From contig JAQGDQ010000067.1 in assembly GCA_030141605.1 (NCBI GenBank), positions 434,001 through 498,000 of the forward strand: a stretch of DNA of 64,000 bases, given 5' to 3'. Both the position numbers and the translations under genes were made by a program. Under the pieces are notes generated by a model. That model was not told the origin of the DNA. It did no database searches and saw only the letters and a list, made by a program, of their open reading frames with translations. The stretch's first letter is position 1, and each line of letters begins with the position of its first letter. This document shows positions 23,901 to 61,577 of the stretch, in pieces. The DNA is from Tubiluchus corallicola (taxonomy: Eukaryota; Priapulida; Priapulimorpha; Priapulimorphida; Tubiluchidae).

Positions 23901-26900
23901 AAATTTGAAAGACGTCTGCTGTTGATAGCACAAAAATATATGCTAGAATTACATAACATTCATTACATGTTGTGCCTCTAATAGCAGACATTCTACGAAC
24001 TATTCAATGTTAAATTTCTCATTGAAAATGGAATCCAGAATGCCAAAATATTTGTCTTATAAACAAAAACTAATTTAATGAAATACATCTGTCAACATCT
24101 CACCTATTTAGCAATTCTGCAGGTTGTGCTATGGCTGTACTAGTCTTTGCTGTAAGTGCTGTACCCAACTGTTTAGTTGTTGCTATAGGTGTACCATGAC
24201 CCTAGCATAACAAGATATTTATAAGTAGGACACACCAACAGTATAGGAATCTCTACACTAATGAACTCACATTAATGGACACACATGCCTTATATTTCAC
24301 ATCTGTGACCGTCTCACACTGGTGTACTTTCGTAGAAATAAAACAGAATACAGAATAGTAACGTACAATACAGTATAAATCATCCATAAGTTTTTAACGT
24401 TCTTGTGCTACTACTCAACAACATTATGCACAGAAAACTAAATGCTGTTTGTACTGACTCATGATTGTGTGCCATTCTGAGCAATTCAATGCTTTTACAA
24501 CAAGCAAATAATATGACCAGGTTCTCAACTTATCATAATTCTAATTTAGGCTTCACTTTATCTATCATTCTAGCTTGAGTCCCAAGAAATTTTTCCATTA
24601 TACACTTAATGCATTGCCTTGTTCTAGGAAGCATCTTTCAAAAGTCAAACAGCTTTTGAGAGGTCACAAGCAAGAAGATTATACTCGCATTTGCTTGTTG
24701 GAGCACTTAAATAATGAAAGAGTTGACAAACCTGTATGCCAGCATGCATGGGAAGAATTGCAGGTGAAGGAAGCCTTAAAACAGCTGCAGCAATTGCAGA
24801 TTTTGATGCTGTGACACCTGCAGCCCCTGTAATCAATAACTCAGGTTTGTAATAGACACTTTAGAAAACAAAGCAGTTGGTAACTACATGCTACAGTTGA
24901 GGAAAAAGAATCTGTACTTGCATATGTAGTTTGCACAGTCTTCATGCAAAAAAGCTAGGTATAGTAAGTCCTCACTTAACGACACCAAAGCCAAGCTTAG
25001 GTCGACTTGAACACAACTCGCAGAAAACAGTCGTAGACACCCGCTCAGGTCGACTGCGACTGATTTTCAGCAACTGCGAGCAACTAGGAAGATGCAAGTT
25101 CCAGCGAGTCGCTGCACTGCTCAAGTCGACGACAACTGAGCGTACGCGATTGGAACTTTTCCAGTGAAACTGATTATATTAGCTATCAATTAGAAGACAA
25201 TATTATGTTTTCTTTTTGAAAACTTTAGCTATAGCAAAATTGTTGTTCTCACCTTTATAACAGTGGCATGAACATCGAATATGAAAATTAAACAAACGTA
25301 ATATTCCGTTTTCAATGGTAAATGTCTGCTAAATTTTGTACCAGACGATATTAGGGGTTTCATTTTTTAGTACATAGCTCACACCTTTCTAGGATGTCTT
25401 AAAAAATAAATGGTGATTGGTGGTATCCAGCAGCTCAGTTCCAGCAAGTTGCAAACAATGCTCAAGTTGCTGCGATCGATTGGAAGTGGGGGGGACAGTA
25501 TCCCGTGAGCATGAGGAACTGAGTTGCGCTGCAAGGCTGCGTATGTCAACTGGATACACTTGGAACTGGCGGCATGCAGTTGCCCCTACTAGCTGCCAGT
25601 TGGCGAGACTCCAGTTGCTCTCAGTTGTGTTGTGTCGCACAGTTGACCTAAGCCTGCCTTAATGCGTTCCAGCAAAACTCCCTGTTAAGGGAAACATCGT
25701 TATATAAAACAATGTCTTCCATAGGAAACAATGTAAAAGTATTCAGTCGAATTTCCCCGCCCAAAGATTAATAATGGTTGGCTTACGTAAGAGCACTTAC
25801 TAAGTTAGCCTGCAAGAAAAAAATCAATAATGCTTGGCTAATAAATCAAACACTTTATGACGTTTATTCCAGACAATTTTTAACTAAAAGCTAAAGAAAA
25901 CTAAAATTTGCAATGAAAATTCAAACTTGGAACATAGGCTTTCTTTCTTGCATACACATTGACCGCCTTGTACCATTTCTTCCTCTTTCTTTTCCTGCAT
26001 ACAGTTTTTTACAAAAAAAATCTAGCGTTGATCACACAGACTCTTTCTTTTTTTGTGCTAAAACTTCTTTCCAACATTAAAGCATTAGCAACATCTTGTC
26101 CCACTTCTGAACTTCGCTCTCTATCTAGATTATTTTTACAACAAAATTCAAATCTAGTGCTAATACTGCCTTTTTAAAAACTTTATGCAGATGTTTAATG
26201 GTAACTATTTCTGATTAACAATCCCGAGAATATTTCTAGTGGTGTTTTTCAGACAATGTAAATGCAAATGAGGTGAACACAGCAATAATTAACCCACTAA
26301 TGTGGCATCAGTGGAATTTCATCTCAGTGGTTTTGTTTACAGCAAACTCAACAGTGTTTAATTGAATGTGAATAAAGATGAAATGCTTACCTCTAGGCAA
26401 ATGTGTAGCATACATCTGCTGATGATGGAGTGGTGCAGAATTATAGCTACCTATCAACTGTCCAGTACTAGCTCTAATTACTGTAGTAAATGGTGCTGTA
26501 TTTACTGACGTAGGCTGAGAATCACCTTTTCATAGCAAAAATAAAATGTAGAATGTATCAGAAATGTAAAAATGTTGTGCTATAATTAGATAACCATATA
26601 TATAGTAGTACAAAATTTATATATAATTTCCAAAAATGTAAAGAATGAAAAAACATGATCGTTTACAATCGGCAAAATCTTGGATAAAATTTACACTTTT
26701 TTATACCATTCTGCACAATGCAAAGCAGAACCAAGCTCACAGGGCTCATTATTAAGACAAACTTCTAAGATGAGACACTTGTACTAATTACATTTCGATG
26801 TTTAGTGATGTGTCTGGTGTTACCTTCCAGCAAAGCTCCCACAGCATATTTGACTGCAACACTATATTTGACTTACCTAACTTTTTTTATACCATTCTGC

Positions 26901-28380
26901 AAATTGCAAAGCAGAACCAAGCTCACAGGGCTCATTATTAAGACAAACTTCTAAGATGAGACACTTGTACTAATTACATTTCGATGTTTAGTGATGTGTC
27001 TGGTGTTACCTTCCAGCAAAGCTCCCATAGCATATTTGACTGCAACACTATATTTGACTTACCTAACTGTAGAGTGAAGGAAGTGAAGCCTAGCAATTAA
27101 CGATAGATTAACTAATATCTGTACATGCTACAACAATCATAACATGCAATTTAAATGTTATCATAAATGCAAATGTTACATTTCAAGAAATCAGTTGTAG
27201 TGTACGTATAACAGCTTAAAGGAAGAATGTTTCAATAGCTTTTTACTGCAGCAAATCATAATAATGTAGAGCAGTGTTTTAACCTGTTGTAACTTGTGGC
27301 TTTCCTGTCAACTGAAAAACTGGAGCTGGAGCAATTGGTCTCACTCCACCAATGGTTGTTACTCGATTACATGTACCTGCCTATATAAAGATATGTACTT
27401 TGCATGTAAAAAATGTTTACTCATCTTGAATATTGCTGGTATTCAAAATTTAAATTTTACAACAAGATAGTATCCATTCAAAATACTGAACACTTTGGAA
27501 TTTGTAAATTCACCTCAGACATAATACGCCACAAGGCGAACACTCAGTTGTAAAAAAGAGATTACTCTTATTGCAAATTCAGTAATAAGCGAGCAAGGTG
27601 GTCTTCTTGTTTATGTTTACTTGATATCTAAAACATACACAGTATATACTGCTTTTGGTACTTGATGATAAAGCAGGCAATAAAGCAGAAGTTGGATTAC
27701 AAGAAGTCTCAATTCGAGTCATTGTACAAATTTATCAATTGAAACTGAGGCGACAAATGAATTAAGTAAATAATTAGCACAGAATGCATGTAGTGATACT
27801 CATAGAATGCGACACTGTAGAAGATTTTAACGAAGAGATTTGCTTTTAATAATACGGCACATATTTCCTAATGTTATGTACGATAAAATTCAGTGCAAAT
27901 CTAAATGTATTAGCTCTGGCATGCAAACCGAATGTATTAAATCGAAATGTATGCAAATCAAACATAAATAAGTAATGTACTAACTTAATCGTAATGCCAG
28001 AAGTGTATTTGTGGCTCAGAAAATAACAGAATGTAGCAGTATTATACTTGACGAAACCATTGTTTTTTCCTAACATAAAATTTTAAAGAAACACAAAGTT
28101 TTATTTCAAAATTGTAACTGAACCAACACAAGCTACACAGTCCCTTGCAGTTGTAAGGAGTAGACCATGACATATGAAGTAAATAAAGCCAGTATCCAGA
28201 CAATTTGCTTACCTGGGTTGAAGTAATTACAGGCTTCATATTATCAACAGATTTAACAACAGTAAGCGGTGGATTTTCAGACTTCCTCACTACTTGATCA
28301 GTAACTGTTTCAACTGGCTGAGCTTGACTTTGTCTTGCATGTGCTTGACCAGACAAACCCGATGGCTGAATGTTACTCAT
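11943..28380 (-). CDS. SAP130: Sin3A-associated protein SAP130, complete 18-exon model
   Basis: Coding order: 28380-28213, 27380-27284, 26525-26391, 24826-24732, 24201-24104, 23191-22383, 22216-22160, 21952-21169, 21066-20948, 20821-20665, 20201-20088, 19297-19149, 18369-18288, 17766-17618, 14633-14505, 13739-13636, 12341-12228, 12092-11943. All phases agree (3510 nt, about 1169 residues plus TAG; human is about 1050). SAP130 is a nuclear subunit of the Sin3-HDAC corepressor. Shared landmarks in order: RPIAPAP, a long Ser/Thr/Pro-rich middle coded by two exons of about 800 nt, SPRPSILRK, SPRKKPRKQ, then the C-terminal domain with MTLLSSFKPSWK, HHFQRY-like NHFQRYTDVKVK, GWKLYHL, LQEGL, QGN-type GNVQRSKL, LKALDHK and a lysine-rich end. 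The ATG at 28380 is the first in the opening exon. The least certain joint is 17618 to 14633: a longer acceptor at 14673 is open but out of phase with this donor. Small first and middle exons rest on splice sites and phase. Confidence 0.92.
13541..13617 (-). repeat. tRNA-like sequence, probable SINE head
   Basis: On the - strand, TTAGCTGGCT resembles an A box and GGGTTCGAATCC (13559-13548) is a near-perfect B box. The spacing of about 50 nt is typical of tRNA-derived SINEs. No cloverleaf with a good acceptor stem forms, so it is not called as a tRNA gene. It lies in a SAP130 intron. Confidence 0.4.
16926..17141 (+). pseudogene. hAT-type transposase BED-finger fragment
   Basis: An ORF of 71 codons contains QCHKEVSEATTELFQHVRYK followed by H-P-E. 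This resembles the BED zinc finger of hAT transposases: C-x2-C, a T-x-L-x-x-H element, and H-x4-H then PE. The first cysteine position is arginine (R-K-Q-C), so the finger is damaged. Following sequence has stops. It sits antisense inside a SAP130 intron. The similarity is short, so the call is tentative. Confidence 0.4.
18161..18225. repeat. Perfect 13-bp inverted repeat, spacer 39 nt
   Basis: TTATGAAACTAAT at 18161-18173 is the reverse complement of 18213-18225; the spacer is almost pure A/T. It may be the remains of a very small MITE. It lies in a SAP130 intron. Confidence 0.5.
24964..25800. mobile_element. Pogo/Tigger-like non-autonomous DNA element in SAP130 intron
   Basis: The left end GTAAGTCCTCACTTAACG and the reverse-complemented right end GTAAGTGCTCTTACGTAA agree at 9 of the first 10 bases, with TA on both outer sides (24962-24963 and 25801-25802). 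'Cacttaacgac' and 'gttaagggaaacatcgtta' near the ends resemble subterminal parts of pogo-family elements. The interior is clearly richer in G+C than its surroundings and is packed with CAACTG/CAGTTG and GTCGAC-type words. No transposase ORF is present. Confidence 0.5.
26696..27066. repeat. Tandem duplication, two copies of 185-186 bp, in SAP130 intron
   Basis: Copies 26696-26880 and 26881-27066 differ by only a few bases (one T in the opening T-run, a small change at 'ctgcacaatg/ctgcaaattg', and one C/T). Direct abutment and high identity indicate a recent duplication. No coding exon is recognised inside; it lies between SAP130 exons 2 and 3. Confidence 0.9.
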
Positions 28381-39493: not shown

Positions 39494-42400
39494 ATGGCTG
39501 CTGCGAAAAGTACACCAAAGGATGCGCTTGTAATGCATGCAATATTAAAAGATATTGGCGTCACTAATTACGAACCACGTATAATTAACCAAATGCTAGA
39601 ATTTGTGTACAGTATGTTTTACTTTTTTCTGAGTTTTTGCTTACTAATTTTTAAGTCCACTGTGTGAAAAACATCTCGGATTACTGTAATAGTAATACTA
39701 ATAGTATAGTACTATTAGTATTACATAAGAAAGGTGTTAGGGGCGGAGTAGGACACTAGCCGAAGTAGGACAATTGGCCTACATGAGCTAGGACAAGTAG
39801 GACACTACAGACAGGTCGCGAATTGAGTCGTTAACCGTACTGGCAGCGTCCATTGTTCTTGTTTGTTTAATAATGATATTTGAAAATGCCGATACGCGTT
39901 GAATAATTTTTTATACATCTGATAAAATAAAAGAATCTTATTCTAAGCTAGTAAGGTGGATAATAGCGCAGATTAATCGAAATCGTACTCTAAAGCTGTA
40001 CTTCGTATGCTGTTATTAGAAAAGTTACTTGACAATCTCTACATTTTTACGAAGAATTCACAAAACGTAGGCAAAAAAGTAATGGACACAGGTAAAGAAA
40101 TGAGCAGCGTCTGTGTATCGAACACTCCTGTTCGGAAAGGTAAAAGTGTTCACAATAAGGTTTCTACAAAAAGTCAGTCCACAAAATTGAAAGTTAAGAG
40201 CAAAATGTCTACATCACGTGGTAAGAACAGTAGCACAGCTGCAGAAAACGTAATCTTATGAAAGACAATAACATTGGAAGTGGCTGCTGAGACACACCAC
40301 AAAATCATTTCATATCTGATGCAGAAAACTGTGTGTGCCCCCTATGTGAAGAACTACTGCATGATGAAACGCCAGCAATGGAATGTGATCGGTGCCACAT
40401 TTGGTTATGTATGACATGCCTAGGTATGGATGATGATGAGTACAATGCTCAATATCTGCTAGGCACTTCTAGTGTCTGGTTTTGTATGGCATGCCGCCCA
40501 AAGGCATTGAAGGCTGTTACAACTGAAATGAACATAGACAAAAAAATCTCCGAGCTGGAGGCAAAGATTCGGATACAGCTATCAACCATAGAATCCAAAA
40601 TTCCGGATAAAGCGTTTAAGTCTGACATTTGTGCTTTGAGAGAGGAAATCAAACAGCTAACCTACAAGATTCCAATTTACGAGATTTGAGAAAAAGTGTT
40701 CATGAGATGGTGGAACGACTGGATTTGTTAGTTTGCGAACCGGTAGACAAAACTGAATGTGATAGAATGGTTGTCATTAATCACATGCCCGAATCCATGC
40801 ATGAGTCATATGATGGCCAGTTTAATGAGGATAAAAATCGCTGCAAAGAGGTTTTTAATCTATTAAAGATTTCCGATTCTCCATCTTTATTAACAGATTT
40901 GGAAAAAAGCAGGGTGGACTGGTAAGACCAACCTTAGTATGGTTTAAGAGCAGTGATGTACAAGTGTGTTCTGCAAAATAAAAGCATTTTGAAAACTAGC
41001 ACTAACTGAACAAAAAAGTGTCTATGTAGAATCCAGCCTTACCAAGCTTGAAAGAGAGAGAAAGGCCATTCGGATAAAAAATTAAATCTGTAGTAGCACG
41101 TAAACCTGGTTCATCGGTGGAACACAGTGAAACAGGGGCTCACACATCGATTGCTAAACTGGTGCATCAGAGTCAAGTTGGTCATGCGATAGGCAGACAT
41201 GGATTATCGACTGCTAATAAAGATGCACAGTGCAGTATACTGATCAAAGGTTCTGCAGGAGCATGTTCCTTGTTTGCTGAGAAAATTACTTACTGAAAAC
41301 AGTAAAGGTACATCATGATCAATAACAATGATAACTTGTCTGCTAAAGAGGTTTTTTCTGCTGATAATCTTTTACCTGTAAATAGAAGTGATAATAACAG
41401 TTTGCTAGGGTGAAACAATGCAGGGAGACATAAAGATAATAGAGCTACTGTTGTCAGTAACTCTTTGTCAGTAAGCTCTCTGAGTTCTATGTTTTATTGA
41501 ACCACATGTAATTATGAGGTGTACGCATTCAGTGAAACATGGCTAACTCCAGAAATTACAAATGGAATGTTGTTAAATGGTTTTAATTTCAAAGTTTACC
41601 GTAAAGATAGAGACACTCGTGGTGGGGGTGTTGCTTTATTTTTTAATTCCAGTTTGAAAGTGTCACCTTGTTAAAATACCTCATATGTTCAGTAATCTTG
41701 AAATTCTAGCTATAAATGTACTTGGCGATCAACCTTTTAGATTAGTTGTTGTTTATCGATCACCCAGTTGTGATATAAATCAGTCTCTTAGTCTTTTTAA
41801 ATGTATGGAATTCTTAGCTAATAGTAAATTCCCTGTTATTTTTATTGGTGATTTTAATATGCCAGGTTTTTCTTGGGGTAATTGTTTTGAGTACCCATTA
41901 GGGTCTAGATTATACCAAGCATTTTGTGATTTAATTTTGCAACAAGGACTAGATCAACTTGTAAATTTACCAAATAGGGTAGATCCTTGCTCTGGTCGTG
42001 CATCCTTTCCAGATCTTCTTCTTTCTACTAATAAAGCAGTTGTACTGAATGTTCAAGGTACTGAACCACTGCTAACAACTGATCTTGCAGCTATAACATT
42101 CAAATGCCAAGGTCCAGGACTGATATCTGGTAACAACTTAGCACTTAGGTGGGACTAAAGCTATTGATCAAACTTAAATCTTTAGGTATTCATGGATACC
42201 TACTGAACTGGATTACCTGTTTTTTATTAAATAGGACCCAGCGATTGTTATTGGTAGCTCTTCCTCAAACTATGTGTCAGAAGTTTCACAGGACAGTGTA
42301 CTTGGACCTTTGTTATATTTGTTATTCATAAATGATCTGCCAGATAATGACTGGTAACTCTAAAATTATTTGCTGATGATGCCAAATTGTATCAATGCCT

Positions 42401-45400
42401 TAAGAATGATGGTACTTCTGATATTCAGTCAGCTCTTGACAAAATCAAAACATTGGCAGACCTATGGCAATTGACCATAGCTATAATTAAAAATTAAACC
42501 AATTGCATATTGGTAGAAATAATCCCGGTAATAACTATTATTTACAAAATCTGGAAATTGAGACTACTAATAATGTTCGAGATCTTGGAATAAATGTATC
42601 ACAAAAACTAAAGTTTAGTGCCCACTGTGCTGAAATTTGTACAAGAGCAAACAGGATAACCAATATGATTGTTAGAATTTTTGCTGTTAGGGACAAACAA
42701 TCTTTATTGGAAGCTTATAAAATATATGTCAAACCATTGGTTGAATATTGTTCTCCTGTGTGGAGTCCTCATCTGCTGTAAGGAGGCGCTCTGTTACCAG
42801 TAACCTTGAGTTTTTTTTAATTTGCCTTCTCATGTACTGATAAAGGCCATCCTATATACATGATTTATTTAGATCTTGCCAAGGTGTTTGACAAAGTACC
42901 TCACCAACGACTGCTTTTGAAACTAGAAGCCTATGGTGTTTCAGGTTCTTTTCATACAAGAATTAGGAACTGGCTAATTGGTCGAACGCAGTATGTTGAG
43001 ATCCAAGGTGTTAAATCATCATATGTGCCAGTTTTATCCGGAGTTTCTCAGGGAAGTGTTCTCGGGCCACTGTTGTTCCTGATTTTCATAGAAGATCTAG
43101 ACCAAGGAATCTGTTCTACGCTCATGAAATTTGCTTATGACATGACTGTGAGTGCCGTACAGCAAGGGTACTTACACATTATATCGGCTTGGGCTACATC
43201 TTTGCTAATGGATTTCAACACCTCTAACTCCAAGTGCAATGTCATTCATGTGGTACGTAACAACAATCATCATCAGTATTACTTTAACAATACTATTTTA
43301 CCAGCAGTTGACTTAGAAGTAGACTTAAGACTCATCAGTGGTGCCAGTCTCAATTTCCGCAGCCATATTGTTACTAAAGCAAAGAAAGAAAATCAACTTC
43401 CCGGACTCATATCAAATATAATTTCCGCAAGATATCTCATGTAATATTACCTCTCTAAATATCTATCGTCAGACCTCATGTGGATTGTGTAAGTCATGTT
43501 TGGGACCCATACATCAAGAAGGACATCGACATCCTGAAACGAGGGCAAGAGAGAGAGAGTAGTCTATTTGATCCATGGACTTGACAATAAATCATATCCT
43601 CAGAAATTACAACATCTTGGACTCATCGACTCTCTTCTCGTAGGCGACGTGGTCGACTGATCGAGGTGTTTAAGATTCCACGTGGACACACCGATATGAA
43701 ACTTTCTTCACCTCAACTAAGTCACACTTTCACCAGAGGTCACTCTCTCAAACTTTACAAACACCGAGCGATACAAGCACAGATTTTCTAATGCCAAAAT
43801 TGATCTATGCAATTCCCTACTGGAAGAAATCGTAGGACTACAAACGTTCAGCGGTTTCAAAAATGCACTAGAGAAATATTTATGCACTAAAGGTCTCCTA
43901 TATTAAGGTCTCCTATCTTTGAGGTATGATTGGAAGCAGAGTGTGTTTTTTGTAAATATCTATCCACGAAGAGCACAATGAATTGCCTGTTATTTATGTG
44001 ATGATCACTGTCTTGTTATACGACAAATATCACAACGTGCTCACCGTTATGGTAAACACTTTAGATAAGGTTTCTTAGTCTCTTAAGTCAATATTAATTA
44101 CAGCTGTCGGCCCTCCCGTATTTTTACTCGTTTGAAGCTTTTCAAAATGTGTTTTTCCTATCCTAATTAATTTCTTCACTACTATTAATATTCTAGCTGT
44201 ATTTCAGTCTGGTTTTGTGTCCTGATACTTGATAGTATTCCTGGTCATCACTGGTGACTCAGCTTCAAATGTTTTTTTAAATATCCACATTGTTAACACT
44301 AATAACACTTTCATTAATCCTGTTTCAGAATGATATCACTCTACAAAAACAAGATCTCCACACTCCGTGTGACGAAATTGTTTTTTATATCCTTCTGAGC
44401 CGGTGCCCCCCCCCCCCACAGTAACGCGATTATTTAAAGTGAAGTATTTTTCTCTATTCACCTTGTAATAACCTTGCTGTGAAATAAGCGTTTCTCTCAG
44501 ATCGACATGGCCTGGTGATTCTACATTCAACCATTTACTGTATTTTTATAATCTCATTGTAGCAGCCTTGGATCACTGCAACCGGTGCCTAATAAACTGC
44601 CCTTAAGAAGTGTCGAAACACGGCAAGGTGCTAATTTTTTTGTAGAGAACCCAGGTATCTAGCTACGTAATTTGATTCCCAGTCTTGGCGAACTTTTTGG
44701 AATATCCGTCGTCTGATCAGAAGACCCATTTAGTGGAAGTTAGTACCACCTGTGATTCATGAAAAACAGAAAACAGTATCACAGTGCCATTTCAAGCACA
44801 TTAGTGTTCCCATTTCTGCTATATTTATGAGCAATTTCTAAAAATATAATTGTTGTGACTAATAGTGAGCATTTAGTAAAAATATCTGAAAAAAGACCAA
44901 CTTAACTACTAACCATTGTAAAAATAAATTGATAACCTTCTACTTAATGCTTGCTAAATAGAAATTGTATTCTTTCTAATTTTTGCAATTGCTGTTTTAT
45001 TGAAAGTGCAAAACTGTGAATGACATATTTACAAAAAATTCTGTCTATTCTCATTGCATATTGCATTATGTAAATTTTGTAAAATATTAAAACTATTATG
45101 TGCCTCACAAATTTCATTTTTTGTGATTTTGTTTTCAGGATATTATTTAAAGTGAAGTATTTTTCTCTATTCACCTTGTAATAACCTTGCTGTGAAATAA
45201 GCGTTTCTCTCAGATCGACATGGCCTGGTGATTCTACATTCAACCAGTTACTGTATTTTTATAATCTCATTGTAGCAGCCTTGGATCACTGCAACCGGTG
45301 CCTAATAAACTGCCCTTAAGAAGTGTCGAAACACGGCAAGGTGCTAATTTTTTTGTAGAGAACCCAGGTATCTAGCTACGTAATTTGATTCCCAGTCTTG

Positions 45401-48400
45401 GCGAACTTTTTGGAATATCCGTCGTCTGATCAGAAGACCCATTTAGTGGAAGTTAGTACCACCTGTGATTCATGAAAAACAGAAAACAGTATCACAGTGC
45501 CATTTCAAGCACATTAGTGTTCCCATTTTTGCTATATTTATGAGCAATTTCTAAAAATATAATTGTTGTGACTAATAGTGAGCATTTAGTAAAAATATCT
45601 GAAAAAAGACCAACTTAACTACTAACCATTGTAAAAATAAATTGATAACCTTCTACTTAATGCTTGCTAAATAGAAATTGTATTCTTTCTAATTTTTGCA
45701 ACTGCTGTTTTATTGAAAGTGCAAAACTGTGAATGACATATTTACAAAAAATTCTGTCTATTCTCATTGCATATTGCATTATGTAAATTTTGTAAAATAT
45801 TAAAACTATTATGTGCCTCACAAATTTCATTTTTTGTGATTTTGTTTTCAGGATACATTACTGGTATTTTGGATGATGCCAGAGTTTACTCCCAGTATGC
45901 CAAACGAAAAAATATTGATTTTGAAGATCTGCGGTTGGCAATACAAATGAAAACAGAATTTGCTTTCACATCACCACCACCTAGAGATGTATGTGTTTCC
46001 TGTAAAAGTAGCATAGTAGCTTATATGCATAAGTGTAGTAGCTTGAATGTTAAGGTAATCAGTTCAACAAAGTGAACTGAAGTTAATATTTCCTTGTAGA
46101 TCGGTTAACTTTGGAGGAGGTGTAGTTTATATCATCCATATCATAGAACTATAAATGAAGTTGTTGTCTTTTACTTAGTTGTTGATTGTCCACATAATTA
46201 ATTTCAGATTTGTGGTTATTAATCTTGATTGGTTCTAAATTTATGTTTCATTGCAAAAAATGGTCCTATATTTAGCATTTTAATCTTAGCACTGTGCACT
46301 ATGCTTACTTTGTGTGGTCTATAGCAGCATCTGTGTTTACTTGAGTATAAGCAAGGAATTCTACTCCACATAAGGCTATATCAAGATTTGACTCCAAAAA
46401 AATTAGCAAAACAAATCATACTGTACAAAATGACCCACTGTAACATTCTAAATAATACTTAACAGATCACCAATTAAACAACAGCTTCGGAAAGGTGGTG
46501 TAGTTTCATGCATTAATGCTGGCAAGTGGTAGTATTAATTCTGAGGATTTTCAATTCACATCTCAAGCACAGGAATTTTTCACTACCAGTTAATTTGGGT
46601 GTTTCCTGCTAGTTCATTTCTGTATGCCTACTAAATACTGGGCTAAATGTTTGCCTGTAGAGAGAGCATCCAGCATGTGGGAGATGTTGATCCATTTTTA
46701 TCCAAATAACTTACGAAGTCTGAAGCTAGTAACTGTATTTTTGTGACTGATAAATAATCAGCTAAAATTACCTGATCTACGAGCTTATAATCAGCCTCCA
46801 CCTGTAGTTAGGATAGAGTTTGGTCTGTTGTGTTTCACGTATATGAGCACACTGTATTTTGTAACATGATGCTGTGTAATATAAAGTTATTAATTTTTCA
46901 GCTTTTAGTCGAACTAGCTCGACAGAAGAATAGTCAGCCTTTACCTGCTATAAAACCACACACTGGCCTTAGACTGCCACCCGACAGATATTGCCTTACT
47001 TCAGCTAACTATAGACATAAATCTCTGAAGAAGGTAACTGACATCAACCAGTAATTAGTTGTTATTAATTTTAGTTGTGACATTTATTCTCATAATGGTT
47101 CATATTTAGCTCATACATGTAGCTTTCGATCTACATTTTGTAGCCAAGAATCGTGAACTGTTATGGGAGCTTCACTATTAGGCCTCTTCAAAAATAAAAT
47201 AACGTCCAACAAGGCTCGAAGATTTTTGCATGTGCAAAGGTGTAGGTGTAGACTGTAGAGTTCACGAAAATGGGGCCAACTGCGAGGCCCGGTTTGCCAT
47301 TGTTTTCTTCTTAATTTGTTTGAGCAAATCCACAACAATTTATCTTTGAAAACACTTCGCTATAGCTTATTGGGTTCATTACTACTCTAGGTTGTTTCAT
47401 GCACCATACACAACCAGGCTCGTCTGCCTCATTGAGGAAGCATTCATTTACATCTGGTCATTTGCAGCGGACACTGCTGCCAGTTCAGTAGATCATCGTA
47501 GAGAGCTATCCTTGATAACTAACTAGGCTTTGGTTAAAGTATAAACATCTTGTTGAGGAGGCCTTGCCATTAGATGCTGGGTTCCAGCTTGCTGTGTGCT
47601 GAAGTGTATAAAAAAGCAACTTTTGCAAGTATTTCCAAAACGTATTTTGGTATGCATAGACCGCATTGGCAGAATCATGAAGCTTTTTTGTTTTAACATA
47701 ATTGTTCACATTTGAAAAATGTGAATGGTTCTTGTTTTATAAGATTTATAGGATTTGACACATCCATGTGTAACGAAACGATGCAATAAAACGTAGCAAA
47801 AAGACCATGATCAATATAATCTTATATTTTGCACATTTAGTATAGACCACTGTAACAGAGCCTCAACATTTTGTTCTTTGAGTTCAAGGGGAAGAAACAG
47901 CAATTTAAAAAATTTGTCCCAAAAACTTTTCACACGAAGTTGTATGACTTAGCATTACACTTATCTGCTTGAAAAACTTGTGTATCTAGAAAAAACAATT
48001 TAAAATGTTTCTGGCCAACTGGTAAAGTCACTGATTCACCTTCCCAATATGTACCGCTCATTTACCTTTTACTTTTAATCTTACTGACGAGATAAAGTAA
48101 TTTATACTTTTGCTTGGTTAGTGAAGTGTGCACTATAAATGCTGTGATTATTTTTTCGAACTTTATGCAAAGTTGTCCAACTTGTTTTAAACCACCTACC
48201 AACAAAATGACTACACCTAATGGTGGTCATCATGGGAGTTTAAATTTTCAAATTTTATACAGCATTGCTGCTAAAGCAAGCTGTGTATGCAATATGAGGT
48301 TATGGAGGTGATACAAATTTTCAAAATGATTTTTTAGCGTATGTAAGTATTATTTTTTAAAATGAGCTTTCATGTGCATTTATGGCATATTATGTAGCTG

Positions 48401-55409: not shown

Positions 55410-58400
55410 TCATTCATTCTGCGAAAGACCTGACGTCTGAGACTTCATCTGCCTCTCAGCTGCCCTAACCATGCTACTAAACAATGACCTCTTCTGAACT
55501 AAAAGATTTGCAGGGGTATCGAATTCAGCTATCTGCAAAGAAAAAACTATCAATAGCATTTCAAATTGCTAGTGTTTTGACTGAAAACTTTCACTAGAAA
55601 GAAATTTAAATATTTTGCTGAATTAAACTGAGTGGCTTGTTGTCCATCTAAATAATTTAAATCTTCTTTTAAAATAAAAAACTGACAACAGTATGTTACT
55701 ACATAAAAATCAGAATCGAAGCGATGATATTAGACATAAGATGGTGTGTCATTGAGATTTTTTTAGTTGCATATTTTATTTGACATAGACACAATATTAG
55801 CAGAAAATATCACAGGAACCAATTTTTACTGAGTGTAGCTCTATCAGTGAGATATACCCATTGTTTTGCAAATTAAGGACTTTTCCGTTTGGTAACATAA
55901 AGGTAACAAGGCAGATGAACATAAAATTTTATACTTTTCCATAAGAAATGCATAGAAATTCTTTCTTTACATCTTTAGGTTTAACTGACTGGACTTTGAT
56001 TGAAGATTTTTTGATGCTGTGACAACAGAACAAATACATTACAGACCCATCTGCAATGCCTCAAATATAAATGACTGGTACTGATGCAAGGACTTGGTCA
56101 AGTTAGTATTGGTAAAGTGGACAGCTTTTGCATCAACTAGGTTCAAAATTCAAGATACTTTTATGCTACACTACACCAGTTTGTGTATTTTATGTAATCT
56201 GAAGATGTTTCACATATGGCACGAGTGTAACATTTTCTTGGTTGGTGACTTTGAAAAATGTTTTCCATACAATTGAGAAGCAAGCTACTATTTGACTTCA
56301 GACAGCAATTATATTAAAAGGCATGAATGAAATAGTGTAGAATCAATAAGAATAAATTTTAGCTAGGATTTTTTTATTTTGTAAAGCTTATACTTACTCT
56401 ACCATCACTCATTACTAATATCTTGTCATAATCTAACACAGTATTGATTCTGTGAGCTATTGTCAGCAATGTACATTCCGCAAATGCATCTTTTATCGTA
56501 GCTTGAATTAATGCATCTGTTTCTGTATCAATAGCTGCTGTTGCTTCATCAAGTAATAAAATCTGGAACAAAAGATACATAGTGGAGTATAAAATTATTT
56601 TAAGATATGATTAAAATACATAATAACAGATAACTTTAGTACAAAAAAAGCTTATAAAAATCAGATTTTATTTCACTATTCAGCTGTTAATTAAATGAAA
56701 AGTTTCTAAGTTCACCGAGTATGTAATGTTAAAAGTAATGTAATACGTGTTTTGACAATAAATTATGATTCATTATCATGGTTAAATGTAAATTAAACTT
56801 TTAGTGCTTTAAAAGTCATTTCCAATCCATTTGAAAACATTCAACAAAGTTAAACATGCAGCCATTTCACTAGCCCAATCAGGAGCACTACATGTGAAAT
56901 CTCAATTATGTTTTGTACAACAACTCACAGCTATGTATTCTGATTATGAAGATGGAACCTGGAAAGAGAAAATGATTTTTCAGACAGGCTCAGTAAATTG
57001 TAAAGCTACACTTTGGCTTTTTTGATTTTTAGGAAAATAGAAGGAGTGTTATTAGAAAATTACTCATGAAATGCAAAGTAATATAATGCCAAATCTGAAT
57101 ATTTAACTCATTTCAAACTTTAGTTTGGTGTTTCAACTTGAACTCCAGGATATTAGATTCATTAACTAGAACTTTAGTTTGGTGTTTCAACTTGAACTCC
57201 ATGATATTAGATTCATTAACTAGAACTTTAGTTTGGTGTTTCAACTTGAACTCCAGGATATTGGACTCATTAACTAGAACTTTAGTTTGGTGTTTCAACT
57301 TGAACTCCAGGATATTGGACTCATTAACTAGAACTTTAGTTTGGTGTTTCAACTTGAACTCCAGGATATTAGATTCATTAACTAGAACTTTAGTTTGGTG
57401 TTTCAACTTGAACTCCAGGATATTGGACTCATTAACTAGAACTTTAGTTTGGTGTTTCAACTTGAACTCCAGGATATTGGACTCATTAACTAGAACTTTA
57501 GTTTGGTGTTTCAACTTGAACTCCAGGATATTGGACTCATTAACTAGAACTTTACCTTGCTACTCCTCAACAGTGCACGGGCCATGCATATTAACTGCCT
57601 TTCTCCCACTGAAAAATTTTCTCCATTCTCTGTAACTGGTGCAGCTAACTTATTTTCCAAATTTGTCACCTGAAACAAATAAAAACAAAATCTTAAAAAT
57701 TACATGAATAAAAAGTGCACTTGCCACATTTGTAGTTATTCATTGTATTCTGCCAAATTTGGGCCACCCAAAATAGCTTTGGGTAGCTTTAAACAAATAC
57801 GAACAACTAAGGAAACAAATTTATTAGTTTTTTTTAACAATTTTTATTGCCTGATTTGTGTAATAAGTTAAATTAAAAAGCCACTTGTTGCTGGCAAGCT
57901 TAACATGCCCTAATTTTATATGAAAATATCTCTACTAATTATTAACAACTACAAAAACAGTAATCAAACAGTTATAACAAGAACGATAACACTCACAATG
58001 TCTTTCATATGTGTTTTCTCCAAAGCTAACCACAATTCTTCATCTTTATGGTTATCAAAGGGATCTAAATTGTACCTGCAAGTAATTGTTATAAAAACAT
58101 AGTTAAAACCTAAGCACTGTGACAAGACAAAAAATAATTGTAATATGATAACTATAATTACATTGTGATGTTGATGATTACAACTGTTCACAGATGGAGT
58201 GCATGCAATATTAGACTACAATAATACTAGACTAGAATATGAAAATCATGACCCATGTTTCTAAAGTGTATATTATAAAGTGCAGAGAAATTAAAAAAAT
58301 GCTTAGTAAAATAAATTTTCTTTGTGCAAACACTATTTAAAATGTTTTGTAAAGCACCTGATACAAAAATATAGATGAACTAAACTGATTTAGCAAACAT

Positions 58401-61400
58401 GAGTAAAATGTTTGGCAAAATGAAAAATTTACAAAAAGGTGGTTTGTAAAATGTGTATCATTTTTTTGCAAGCACGAACAGCCATGAGAAATAAAATGTC
58501 AAAATTAGCATTCACGATAATACACATATTAAAACAATAATGTTGCTTTTAAAATAACATTACCTTTTGCCAATGCATCAGGTTTGGTCTTTTAAAAAGT
58601 TAATGATTATGGATTTAAACTTTGATTAATTGATAAATTTGAAATTAATAATTAATTAATTATCCATGGGGATTATCCATAACACTAAATTATCAAAAGT
58701 AGTATAAACAGCTAGTAGTCTAGTGTGAGTAAACTAAAACTTTTGAAGAACAGGGTTAATTCATAGGTTATTAATACTGAATTAATGCCTGAGATGGTCA
58801 CAAAATGGATTCGAATTCATTCTCAGTTCCAACATTTCTAATCCCATACCATTCTGGCAGCCAAGGTTTTAAAAAGAATAGTAATAGACAATTTAATCAA
58901 GCAAAAAAGTCACAAACTTCATACCTAACATTTCCAGCAAATAAAACAGGATCCTGCGGTATAATAGAAATTCTTGATCTCAAATCTTCTAGTCCTATTT
59001 GACCAATGTCCACAGCATCAATGCTTATGCTTCCAGATTCCAATTCAACTATTCGAAATAGGGCTACTCCAAGAGAAGACTTTCCTTTAACAAATCCAAC
59101 ATACAAATATTAATATGCAAAACAAAACAAATAGCATTTCATACATGATGCACTGAACTATAGCGAGTATATTTCTTATGAAAAATTTTCCTTTCAACAG
59201 TGCAATTTATCTATTGAAAACTGTGTTTTGCAAACTAAAAAGTGTTGCATCTTTAAAATTTAGCAAAATAGTTCAAAAAATACAGACCTTACTTTTACCT
59301 TTTACAGTTGCAAGACAAGTTATGAACTATAAACTAGCTATTGATGTCAAATAAACAGGAAAAGCAAGCTAAACTGCAAAACATTACCTGCACCAGTTCT
59401 GCCGCAAATTCCTATCTTTTCGCCAGCTTTAACTTCAAAAGTGAGATCTTTCAATACCAATGGCAAGTTTTCCCTGTATCGAAGATTTACTCGGCTAAAA
59501 TGGATGTGACCTTTATTTGGCCAGTCATCGTCTGGACGGTTGTCTTCTATAATATCAGGTGACTCTGACGTAATGTGCTAAAAAATAGAATACTTAAAGA
59601 AAATTTAGTAAAGTATGGCTGCAGCTTACTATGTAAGTTATATCCTTGTGTTATGTGAAAATCTTAATCTAAAAAATCTTAATGTTGAAACTTATGATGT
59701 GGTCTGATCAATCAAGTCAGTCAGTCAGAGAAATGAAAGATTAATGCCTTAATAAAGAACAAGCCAGGCCTACAAGAGAAAAACATCTGATAATTCAGCA
59801 TCAACTCACAACTTGAACGTTCAGTTCAAAATTACCAAAAAACACCAAAATCTTTCAAATTTTGAAATGTGTTTCTGAAATGAGTTGCAGTCTGGTGGGC
59901 CCGTCCTTGCAGTATTAACTCTGTCATTTGCCCTATGTCTTTTGGTGAATGTTTTATGAATATCCAACAAGTGGTTCCAAAAATATTCACTGATAAAGTT
60001 TGAAAAATGATTGTAAACATTGCTGGCACATCCAACTCTACCCAGGAAAGGAGTCACTTCGATTAATATTTTCAAGGCAACGTTTCTTCTCAGACATTTC
60101 TAATTAACGCACATTATATATTAATGACCTTTGGTGCCAAAGGTTTGAGATCATGGTTGCAAATCCAGAACCAAACAGTAGTGTAACTACTAGTAATCGC
60201 AGATAAGAAATTTGCAGGGATATTATGTGTCTAGAATAGTAGAAGAAAAAATGTTGTCTAGACTATGAGCAGGTTCCATCCATAAACTCTGCCTGGCAGC
60301 GTGCCAGCTACAAATCATAAATTACCCTTGTGATTTTGAGAATGAAAAACAGTTGTTTGTTGTCGGTAAGTGAATTCCCTCATTTCCCTGTGATGTGTGC
60401 CTAGTCAAAATTTTATATTGAGCATGTAAACTTCATTTGCTAAGCAAACATAAAGCAAATGCAACAGTAGTCACTTTACAATGAAGTTAAAATAATTGTT
60501 AGAAAAAATAATTATGTATACTGACTAAGCATTAGCTGCTCAGTCACAGTCAATCGGTCACATTTGGATAGGAAAGATACTAATAACAGTGAGGCAAGAA
60601 TCACACAAAATATTTTTCGTAAGACACCAAGTTTTTATATAATTTTCATAAACTGTTCTAATATTACTGGCGAATCACACCCCATGAGAATAAATGCTGA
60701 TTGCACTGTTGCCATACATGTGCGAAAAGATAATCATGCGTTTGGTTTATGCATTTTATGCGTTTAGTTTTAAGTAGTTTACTTACAAGACATTTTAAAA
60801 AGCTTACACATTATTAATAAAAATTTGAATGTAAAATACATTACCACAAAATTTAAGCAATAAATAACTTGGTACATAGTACATTTTTCTTGATATGCCT
60901 CAAAACAACTGAAGTAAATGTTGTTATTCAAATACTGCCGCTCCATCCTTTACTGCTTCTAAAACCACTACTGGACCAGCAAAGGTTGGTCTTAATAAAT
61001 GAAATTTATTTTTGCAGTGACCTGTTGCAGGTGTGTGTATTTAGCAAAGTACAAAACGTAACAACTTGAATATGTGCAAGATGTTCATTAATGCTAACGT
61101 ATGTACCGCCTTTATTTTTGACATCCATTTTGTAAAAACATATATTGACTGTTAATTTTAATTAAATGTAGTTAGTTTCATCATTAATTTTTGTTACCAT
61201 ATACAAACTTAGGCATTCAGTCAAACTAATTTTGATTTATTTTATTTAATCCAAAATTTAAATCCTATGTGTGATAAGATTTAATAAAAAAATCTAAAAT
61301 TGGGAAGGAGTTTACAATTCCTCACACAATTTAAATACCATAATCTTAACCCTAACCTTACATCTAACCCTAAACCAACCCTACCCTAATCCTAACCCTA

Positions 61401-61577
61401 ACCCTGCTACACAAACTAATTTCTTGCGTGTGGGAATTGTAAACTTTAGCCAACTAAAAATGTGATAAGAATTTTGACTGAACTTACAGTGGTATAATGC
61501 TGTATTCGCTCAACTGACGTGAAACGTGCCTCTGTTTCTGAAAGCAAGCGCACTGTAAACTGGAACATACCACTAAG
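55410..61577 (-). CDS. ABCC5: ABC transporter subfamily C, ABCC5/MRP5-like, last seven exons (NBD2)
   Basis: Coding order: 61577-61488, 59577-59388, 59084-58925, 58075-57997, 57669-57556, 56562-56398, 55532-55410; all phases agree (921 nt, 306 residues plus TGA). The first exon holds the end of the last transmembrane domain and linker ([20 protein letters not shown]). Nucleotide-binding domain 2 then runs [12 protein letters not shown], Walker A GRTGAGKSS, Q-loop [28 protein letters not shown], signature [10 protein letters not shown], Walker [18 protein letters not shown]-loop LTIAHR and a short C-terminal tail. The [20 protein letters not shown] and [10 protein letters not shown] stretches fit ABCC5 better than ABCC4. 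ABCC5 exports cyclic nucleotides and other organic anions across the plasma membrane in vertebrates; substrate here is inferred only. All catalytic motifs of this domain are intact. The 5' exons must lie beyond 64000. Confidence 0.94.
57119..57554. repeat. 54-bp minisatellite, about 8 copies, next to ABCC5 splice donor
   Basis: The unit contains GTTTGGTGTTTCAACTTGAA, CTCCAGGATATT and CATTAACTAGAAC; copies differ by ttagattcat/ttggactcat and one ccatgat variant. Because 54 is a multiple of three, open frames run the full array on both strands (133 and 165 codons), but these are repeat artefacts. On the ABCC5 strand the array starts three bases after the donor GT of the exon ending at 57556. 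Confidence 0.97.
61270..61470. repeat. Inverted-repeat element with telomere-like CCCTAA core
   Basis: 61345-61406 is a run of degenerate CCCTAA units (exact copies near 61349, 61365 and 61392-61403). It is framed by an inverted repeat: AGTTTACAATTCCTCACAC at 61309-61327 and GTGTGGGAATTGTAAACT at 61428-61445, with partial extension outward through TTGG/CCAA. The direct repeat TGTGATAAGA occurs outside on both sides (61270-61279 and 61461-61470). It lies 17 bp from the donor of the ABCC5 exon ending at 61488. Confidence 0.75.

Follow-up and report, generated by a model that had tools for sequence, protein, structure and literature searches.

Two abutting copies of a 713-bp segment duplicate the 3' splice site of TAF9 exon 2 in an assembly of the priapulid Tubiluchus corallicola

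The stretch of DNA analyzed here (in the following: the window) comprises 64,000 nucleotides of contig JAQGDQ010000067.1 (positions 434,001 to 498,000 of the forward strand) in assembly GCA_030141605.1 of Tubiluchus corallicola. It carries a gene for TAF9, a protein with the TFIID-31kDa histone-fold domain, in which the end of intron 1 and the first bases of exon 2 are found twice in tandem. TAF9 is an essential gene. All features described for this locus lie on the plus strand, and positions are those of the window. Coding exon 1 (39494–39611, 118 nt) begins at the ATG and ends in phase 1 at the donor ACA/GTATGT. It is followed by intron 1 (39612–45851), which measures 6240 nt as assembled and would measure 5527 nt if the upstream of its two acceptors were used. 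Exon 2 (45852–45988, 137 nt, donor GAT/GTATGT), intron 2 (913 nt) and exon 3 (46902–47033, up to the likely donor AAGAAG/GTAACT) complete the model. Exons 1, 2 and 3 joined through position 45852 encode an intact TFIID-31kDa domain (Pfam PF02291, 173.7 bits at a cut-off of 29 bits, residues 5–123), and the closest PDB chains to the joined protein are the TFIID subunits 9B and 9, which places it in the TAF9 family.

A search of the whole assembly (343.5 Mb, 2344 contigs) with the family model matched the three exons at a single locus only, in which one haplotype is represented. A second TAF9 locus was not found in this search of an assembly that is possibly incomplete, and the evidence that TAF9 is single copy may be called good but not final. 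Intron 1 also contains remains of a decayed non-long-terminal-repeat retrotransposon (40080–43900), with PHD-like, endonuclease and reverse transcriptase pieces.

In the duplicated unit, 710 bases from the end of intron 1 are followed by the GAT with which exon 2 begins. Copy A (44429–45141) and copy B (45142–45854) lie on the same strand, abut each other and align without gaps in 710 of 713 positions (99.6%), as is characteristic of a tandem segmental duplication. They differ at three sites, namely 44534T/45247G, 44816C/45529T and 44989T/45702C. Beyond the unit the match extends by no base to the left and by a single base (A) to the right. A chance origin of an abutting match of this length and identity is ruled out. 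The window is free of N. Both copies are found in the assembly at C562:478429–479141 and 479142–479854, that is, in the same assembly, so that this is not independent evidence.

As a consequence of this arrangement, the acceptor of exon 2 is present twice. The upstream acceptor (45119–45141, TTTTGTGATTTTGTTTTCAG/GAT) has its AG ending at 45138, and the downstream acceptor (45832–45854), the same 23-mer of 20 intronic and 3 exonic bases, has its AG ending at 45851 and restores TAF9. Both have complete signals, and they would form a candidate alternative 3' splice site pair. Identity between them covers 149 bases ending in AG, plus four exonic bases (GATA). Since the 23-base windows are identical, acceptor scores must tie, and local strength cannot discriminate between the two sites. 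None of the three differences between the copies falls within the 149 bases that end in the upstream AG; with no more than about 0.25 changes expected per 60 nt, this absence of decay at the upstream acceptor is uninformative on selection. A first-pass annotation, made from the letters of the window, had named the gene TAF9 and described two nearly identical, abutting 713-bp copies with the acceptor CAG at 45138 and 45851. Domain match, alignment and acceptor positions bear this out, and the further claim that any discrimination must rest on the sequence after the acceptors is well founded, considering the 149 plus four identical bases.

The two acceptors have different consequences for the reading frame. 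Splicing to 45139 yields a protein of 44 residues (...EFVYRYYLK-stop) which ends within the histone fold, the frame running A/GA TAT TAT TTA AAG TGA (R-Y-Y-L-K-stop) to an in-frame TGA (45153–45155) after five codons. Exon 2 extended in this way would measure 850 nt, 713 nt more than the normal exon. The early stop and the truncation had been predicted correctly by the first-pass annotation. The stop it quoted (GATATTATTTAA, a TAA) is out of frame, because exon 1 ends in phase 1. It also overlooked a shorter route, in which the upstream acceptor would be joined to a cryptic donor, either CTG/GTGATT at 45228 or CAG/GTATCT at 45368, resulting in a hypothetical poison exon of 89 or 229 nt (within 45139–45367). 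The 850-nt exon and both poison exons alike stop after codon 44.

With respect to the origin of the duplication, the outer flanks of the unit are ancestral and the inner junction is new. The left edge is crossed by an old interspersed repeat fragment (44227–44509), of which about 200 bases precede the unit and ~80 form its beginning. A related copy at C716:1195326–1195594 (L039) aligns continuously over 44428/44429 (AGTAAAATGATTATTTAAAATG versus AGTAACGCGATTATTTAAAGTG), with 70% identity over 289 columns. On the right, the coding sequence of exon 2 runs on across 45854/45855. Since neither the ancestral left edge nor the coding right edge is new, the duplication created a single join, at 45141/45142. 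The single base of microhomology would fit a tandem duplication of the end-joining or replication type. Another feature near the left edge is a run of 12 C (44406–44417), 11 bases outside the unit, which the related repeat copy lacks; that it aided the break is speculation. This tract, followed by ACAG (44406–44421), also resembles an acceptor within intron 1 (13 of 15 pyrimidines). The divergence of the copies (0.42%, 3/713) implies that the event was recent, as had been proposed, or that the copies were homogenised later.

Two other origins of the repeated segment were considered and rejected. That the duplicated unit is a mobile element does not agree with the finding that only its first ~80 bases have matches elsewhere (77–80%), these being the tail of an old repeat which starts left of the unit. 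A long target-site duplication around an insertion would require inserted sequence, and there is nothing between the abutting copies.

Based on these data, we hypothesize, with a probability of roughly two in three, that a recent and possibly polymorphic tandem duplication has added 713 nt to intron 1 of TAF9, and that the downstream acceptor makes TAF9. A local tandem duplication with 1-bp microhomology would have copied the end of intron 1 together with the GAT of exon 2, leaving two acceptors that agree in branch region, pyrimidine tract and AG as well as in the first bases of the exon. Productive transcripts of TAF9 would then arise via the downstream acceptor (AG at 45851), because only this site precedes, at a normal distance (137 nt), a real exon with a donor of its own. 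The upstream acceptor would act as a decoy, and the extra 713 nt would normally remain intronic. Some transcripts with the early stop may nevertheless leak through, and a degree of non-productive splicing is plausible. From the assembled DNA we infer that the duplication is present in the animal, that the downstream acceptor is the one used, and that the event is nearly neutral.

Several considerations enter into the proposed choice of acceptor. The productive join must come from at least one allele, since TAF9 is essential and no other copy was found. Given the lengths of intron 1 (6240 nt), intron 2 (913 nt) and exon 2 (137 nt), exon 2 should be recognized across the exon (exon definition). 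In human data on acceptor pairs of similar strength, the preference for the upstream acceptor drops significantly if the introns on either side are both long; in the authors' conclusion, splicing then favors the sites nearest to each other across the exon (PMC9225289). On the other hand, some observations weigh against the proposed reading. Human acceptor pairs at least 20 nt apart are still biased towards the upstream site overall (PMC9225289). In a tandem duplication within human BRCA1, the duplicated piece of intron was put into the mRNA (PMC11839443), a counter-case which is softened by the 1617 exonic bases copied along with the BRCA1 acceptor, compared with three in TAF9. Finally, the assembly carries redundant contigs: the 1.05-Mb contigs C2264 (length 1053078) and C1787 (length 1053064) are identical in all ~16 kb compared, with a 14-base offset, which indicates that redundancy was incompletely removed.

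This last observation leads to the possibility of an assembly artefact, in which a single 713-bp stretch, or two alleles with three differing sites, would have been written twice. We consider this unlikely, although the alleles of many animals differ to a similar extent as the two copies (0.42%). The redundancy of C2264 and C1787 affects whole contigs and is of another kind; these contigs also failed as a yardstick for allele divergence, as they are identical and not allelic. The seam, with its 1-bp overlap and no N gap, would be unlike the usual overlap-based assembly error, and merged-allele errors normally leave an overlap or a gap. Furthermore, ~234 kb of other loci (partly redundant, and for the most part made up of 18 10-kb stretches) contained no two-copy abutting duplication with a unit of at least 120 bp and an identity of at least 95%, which indicates that seams of this sort do not abound in the assembly. 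Tandem arrays of short units were present in the sampled loci, as was an array in which a 128-bp unit is repeated about three times (L023).

It is rather improbable that a non-productive form matters in its own right. In this case, splicing to the upstream acceptor would be substantial, perhaps under regulation, and would lower TAF9 via nonsense-mediated decay; the transcripts would include either exon 2 extended to 850 nt or a poison exon with its end at 45227 or 45367. The identity of the acceptors and the common stop after codon 44 would agree with such a scenario. So would the scores of the cryptic donors at 45228 and 45368 (7.24 and 6.27), which are at least as high as that of the donor of exon 2 itself (5.05) in an approximate metazoan matrix built from general knowledge and not fitted to Tubiluchus corallicola. 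However, donor-like sites scoring at least 5.05 occur at 3.4 per kb in the window, corresponding to a 57% chance of one in any given 250 nt, and because sites this good are so frequent the candidate poison-exon donors are unremarkable. The sequence carries no hint of regulation, and a young duplication leaves little time for regulation to evolve. In addition, the 137 nt after the upstream acceptor (GC 33%, purine 42%) are slightly less exon-like than exon 2 (GC 37%, purine 53%), a weak difference.

Another scenario, which we regard as very doubtful, is that of a deleterious allele in a heterozygous animal, in which the upstream acceptor would largely be used while a single-copy allele supplies TAF9. 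The few differences between copies A and B and the single haplotype shown at the locus would be compatible with it, and the BRCA1 case shows that such duplications can do damage (PMC11839443), but the upstream acceptor of TAF9 precedes just three exonic bases. Equally doubtful is a natural competition in cis between acceptors identical over ~150 bases, decided wholly by the downstream sequence, in which a new poison or extended exon would tune the dose of TAF9.

A tandem duplication of this kind has close published precedents, which the first-pass annotation overlooked. In the potato RdRp gene, a tandem duplication across the boundary of intron 1 and exon 2 gave rise to a new intron, as backed by RNA-seq and whole-genome sequencing reads (PMC4974935). 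The TAF9 duplication spans the same kind of boundary and likewise displays few differences between its copies (three, compared with ten in RdRp). In RdRp, however, a piece of the exon was copied together with a GT donor, whereas in TAF9 only GAT was copied. This triplet lacks a GT, and no donor is carried with the copied exon piece, so that a new intron in TAF9 could arise only through a cryptic donor within sequence of intronic origin. The partial tandem duplication of BRCA1 exon 10 comprises 395 intronic and 1617 exonic bases, and the intron piece was found in cDNA (PMC11839443). It resembles TAF9 in that the end of an intron and the start of an exon are repeated in tandem, with the acceptor present twice and a premature stop reached via the upstream copy. 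Apart from the number of exonic bases copied, it differs in having been seen at the RNA level, while the TAF9 duplication is known from assembled DNA.

Competition between splice sites of equal strength has been described in minigenes (Reed and Maniatis, as cited in PMC9225289), and genome-wide comparisons are provided by ALTssDB. In these systems, as would be the case in TAF9, nearly equal sites compete in cis, and position and surroundings decide. The sites compared there are engineered or merely of comparable strength, whereas TAF9 would offer a natural pair identical over 149 plus four bases. Splice signals also come from a tandem duplication in the Rogers model, in which duplicating an exon segment with AGGT yields an intron, and in the ATP2A2 experiment of Hellsten et al. 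(both as cited in PMC4974935), but the TAF9 unit is mostly intronic and is no AGGT unit. Novel introns in Drosophila have been ascribed to tandem duplication as well (PMC2891723). A literature search found no published study of a TAF9 acceptor duplication.

Hence, the TAF9 case adds one more example to a type of event already known, and it points to no new mechanism. If the duplication is real, it would represent a natural version of a classical experiment, in which a long intron offers two locally equal acceptors at a distance of 713 nt and just one of them has a real exon behind it. The ratio of the two RNA junctions would then gauge how far exon context alone sets the choice of acceptor in this species.

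In the window as a whole, no match to any Rfam family of structured RNA was obtained. The only other abutting two-copy duplication in the window is located at 26697–27068 (186 bp, 98% identical). Each of its copies contains, on the minus strand, a short stretch edged by splice-like signals (left copy TTGCAG/TCAAATATGCTGTGGGAGCTTTGCTGGAAG/GTAACA), and a small exon may have been duplicated there. A minisatellite at 57116–57554 consists of 8.1 copies of 54-bp units (97% matches), and a degenerate interstitial TAACCC repeat of about ten units (70% matches) is found at 61347–61405.
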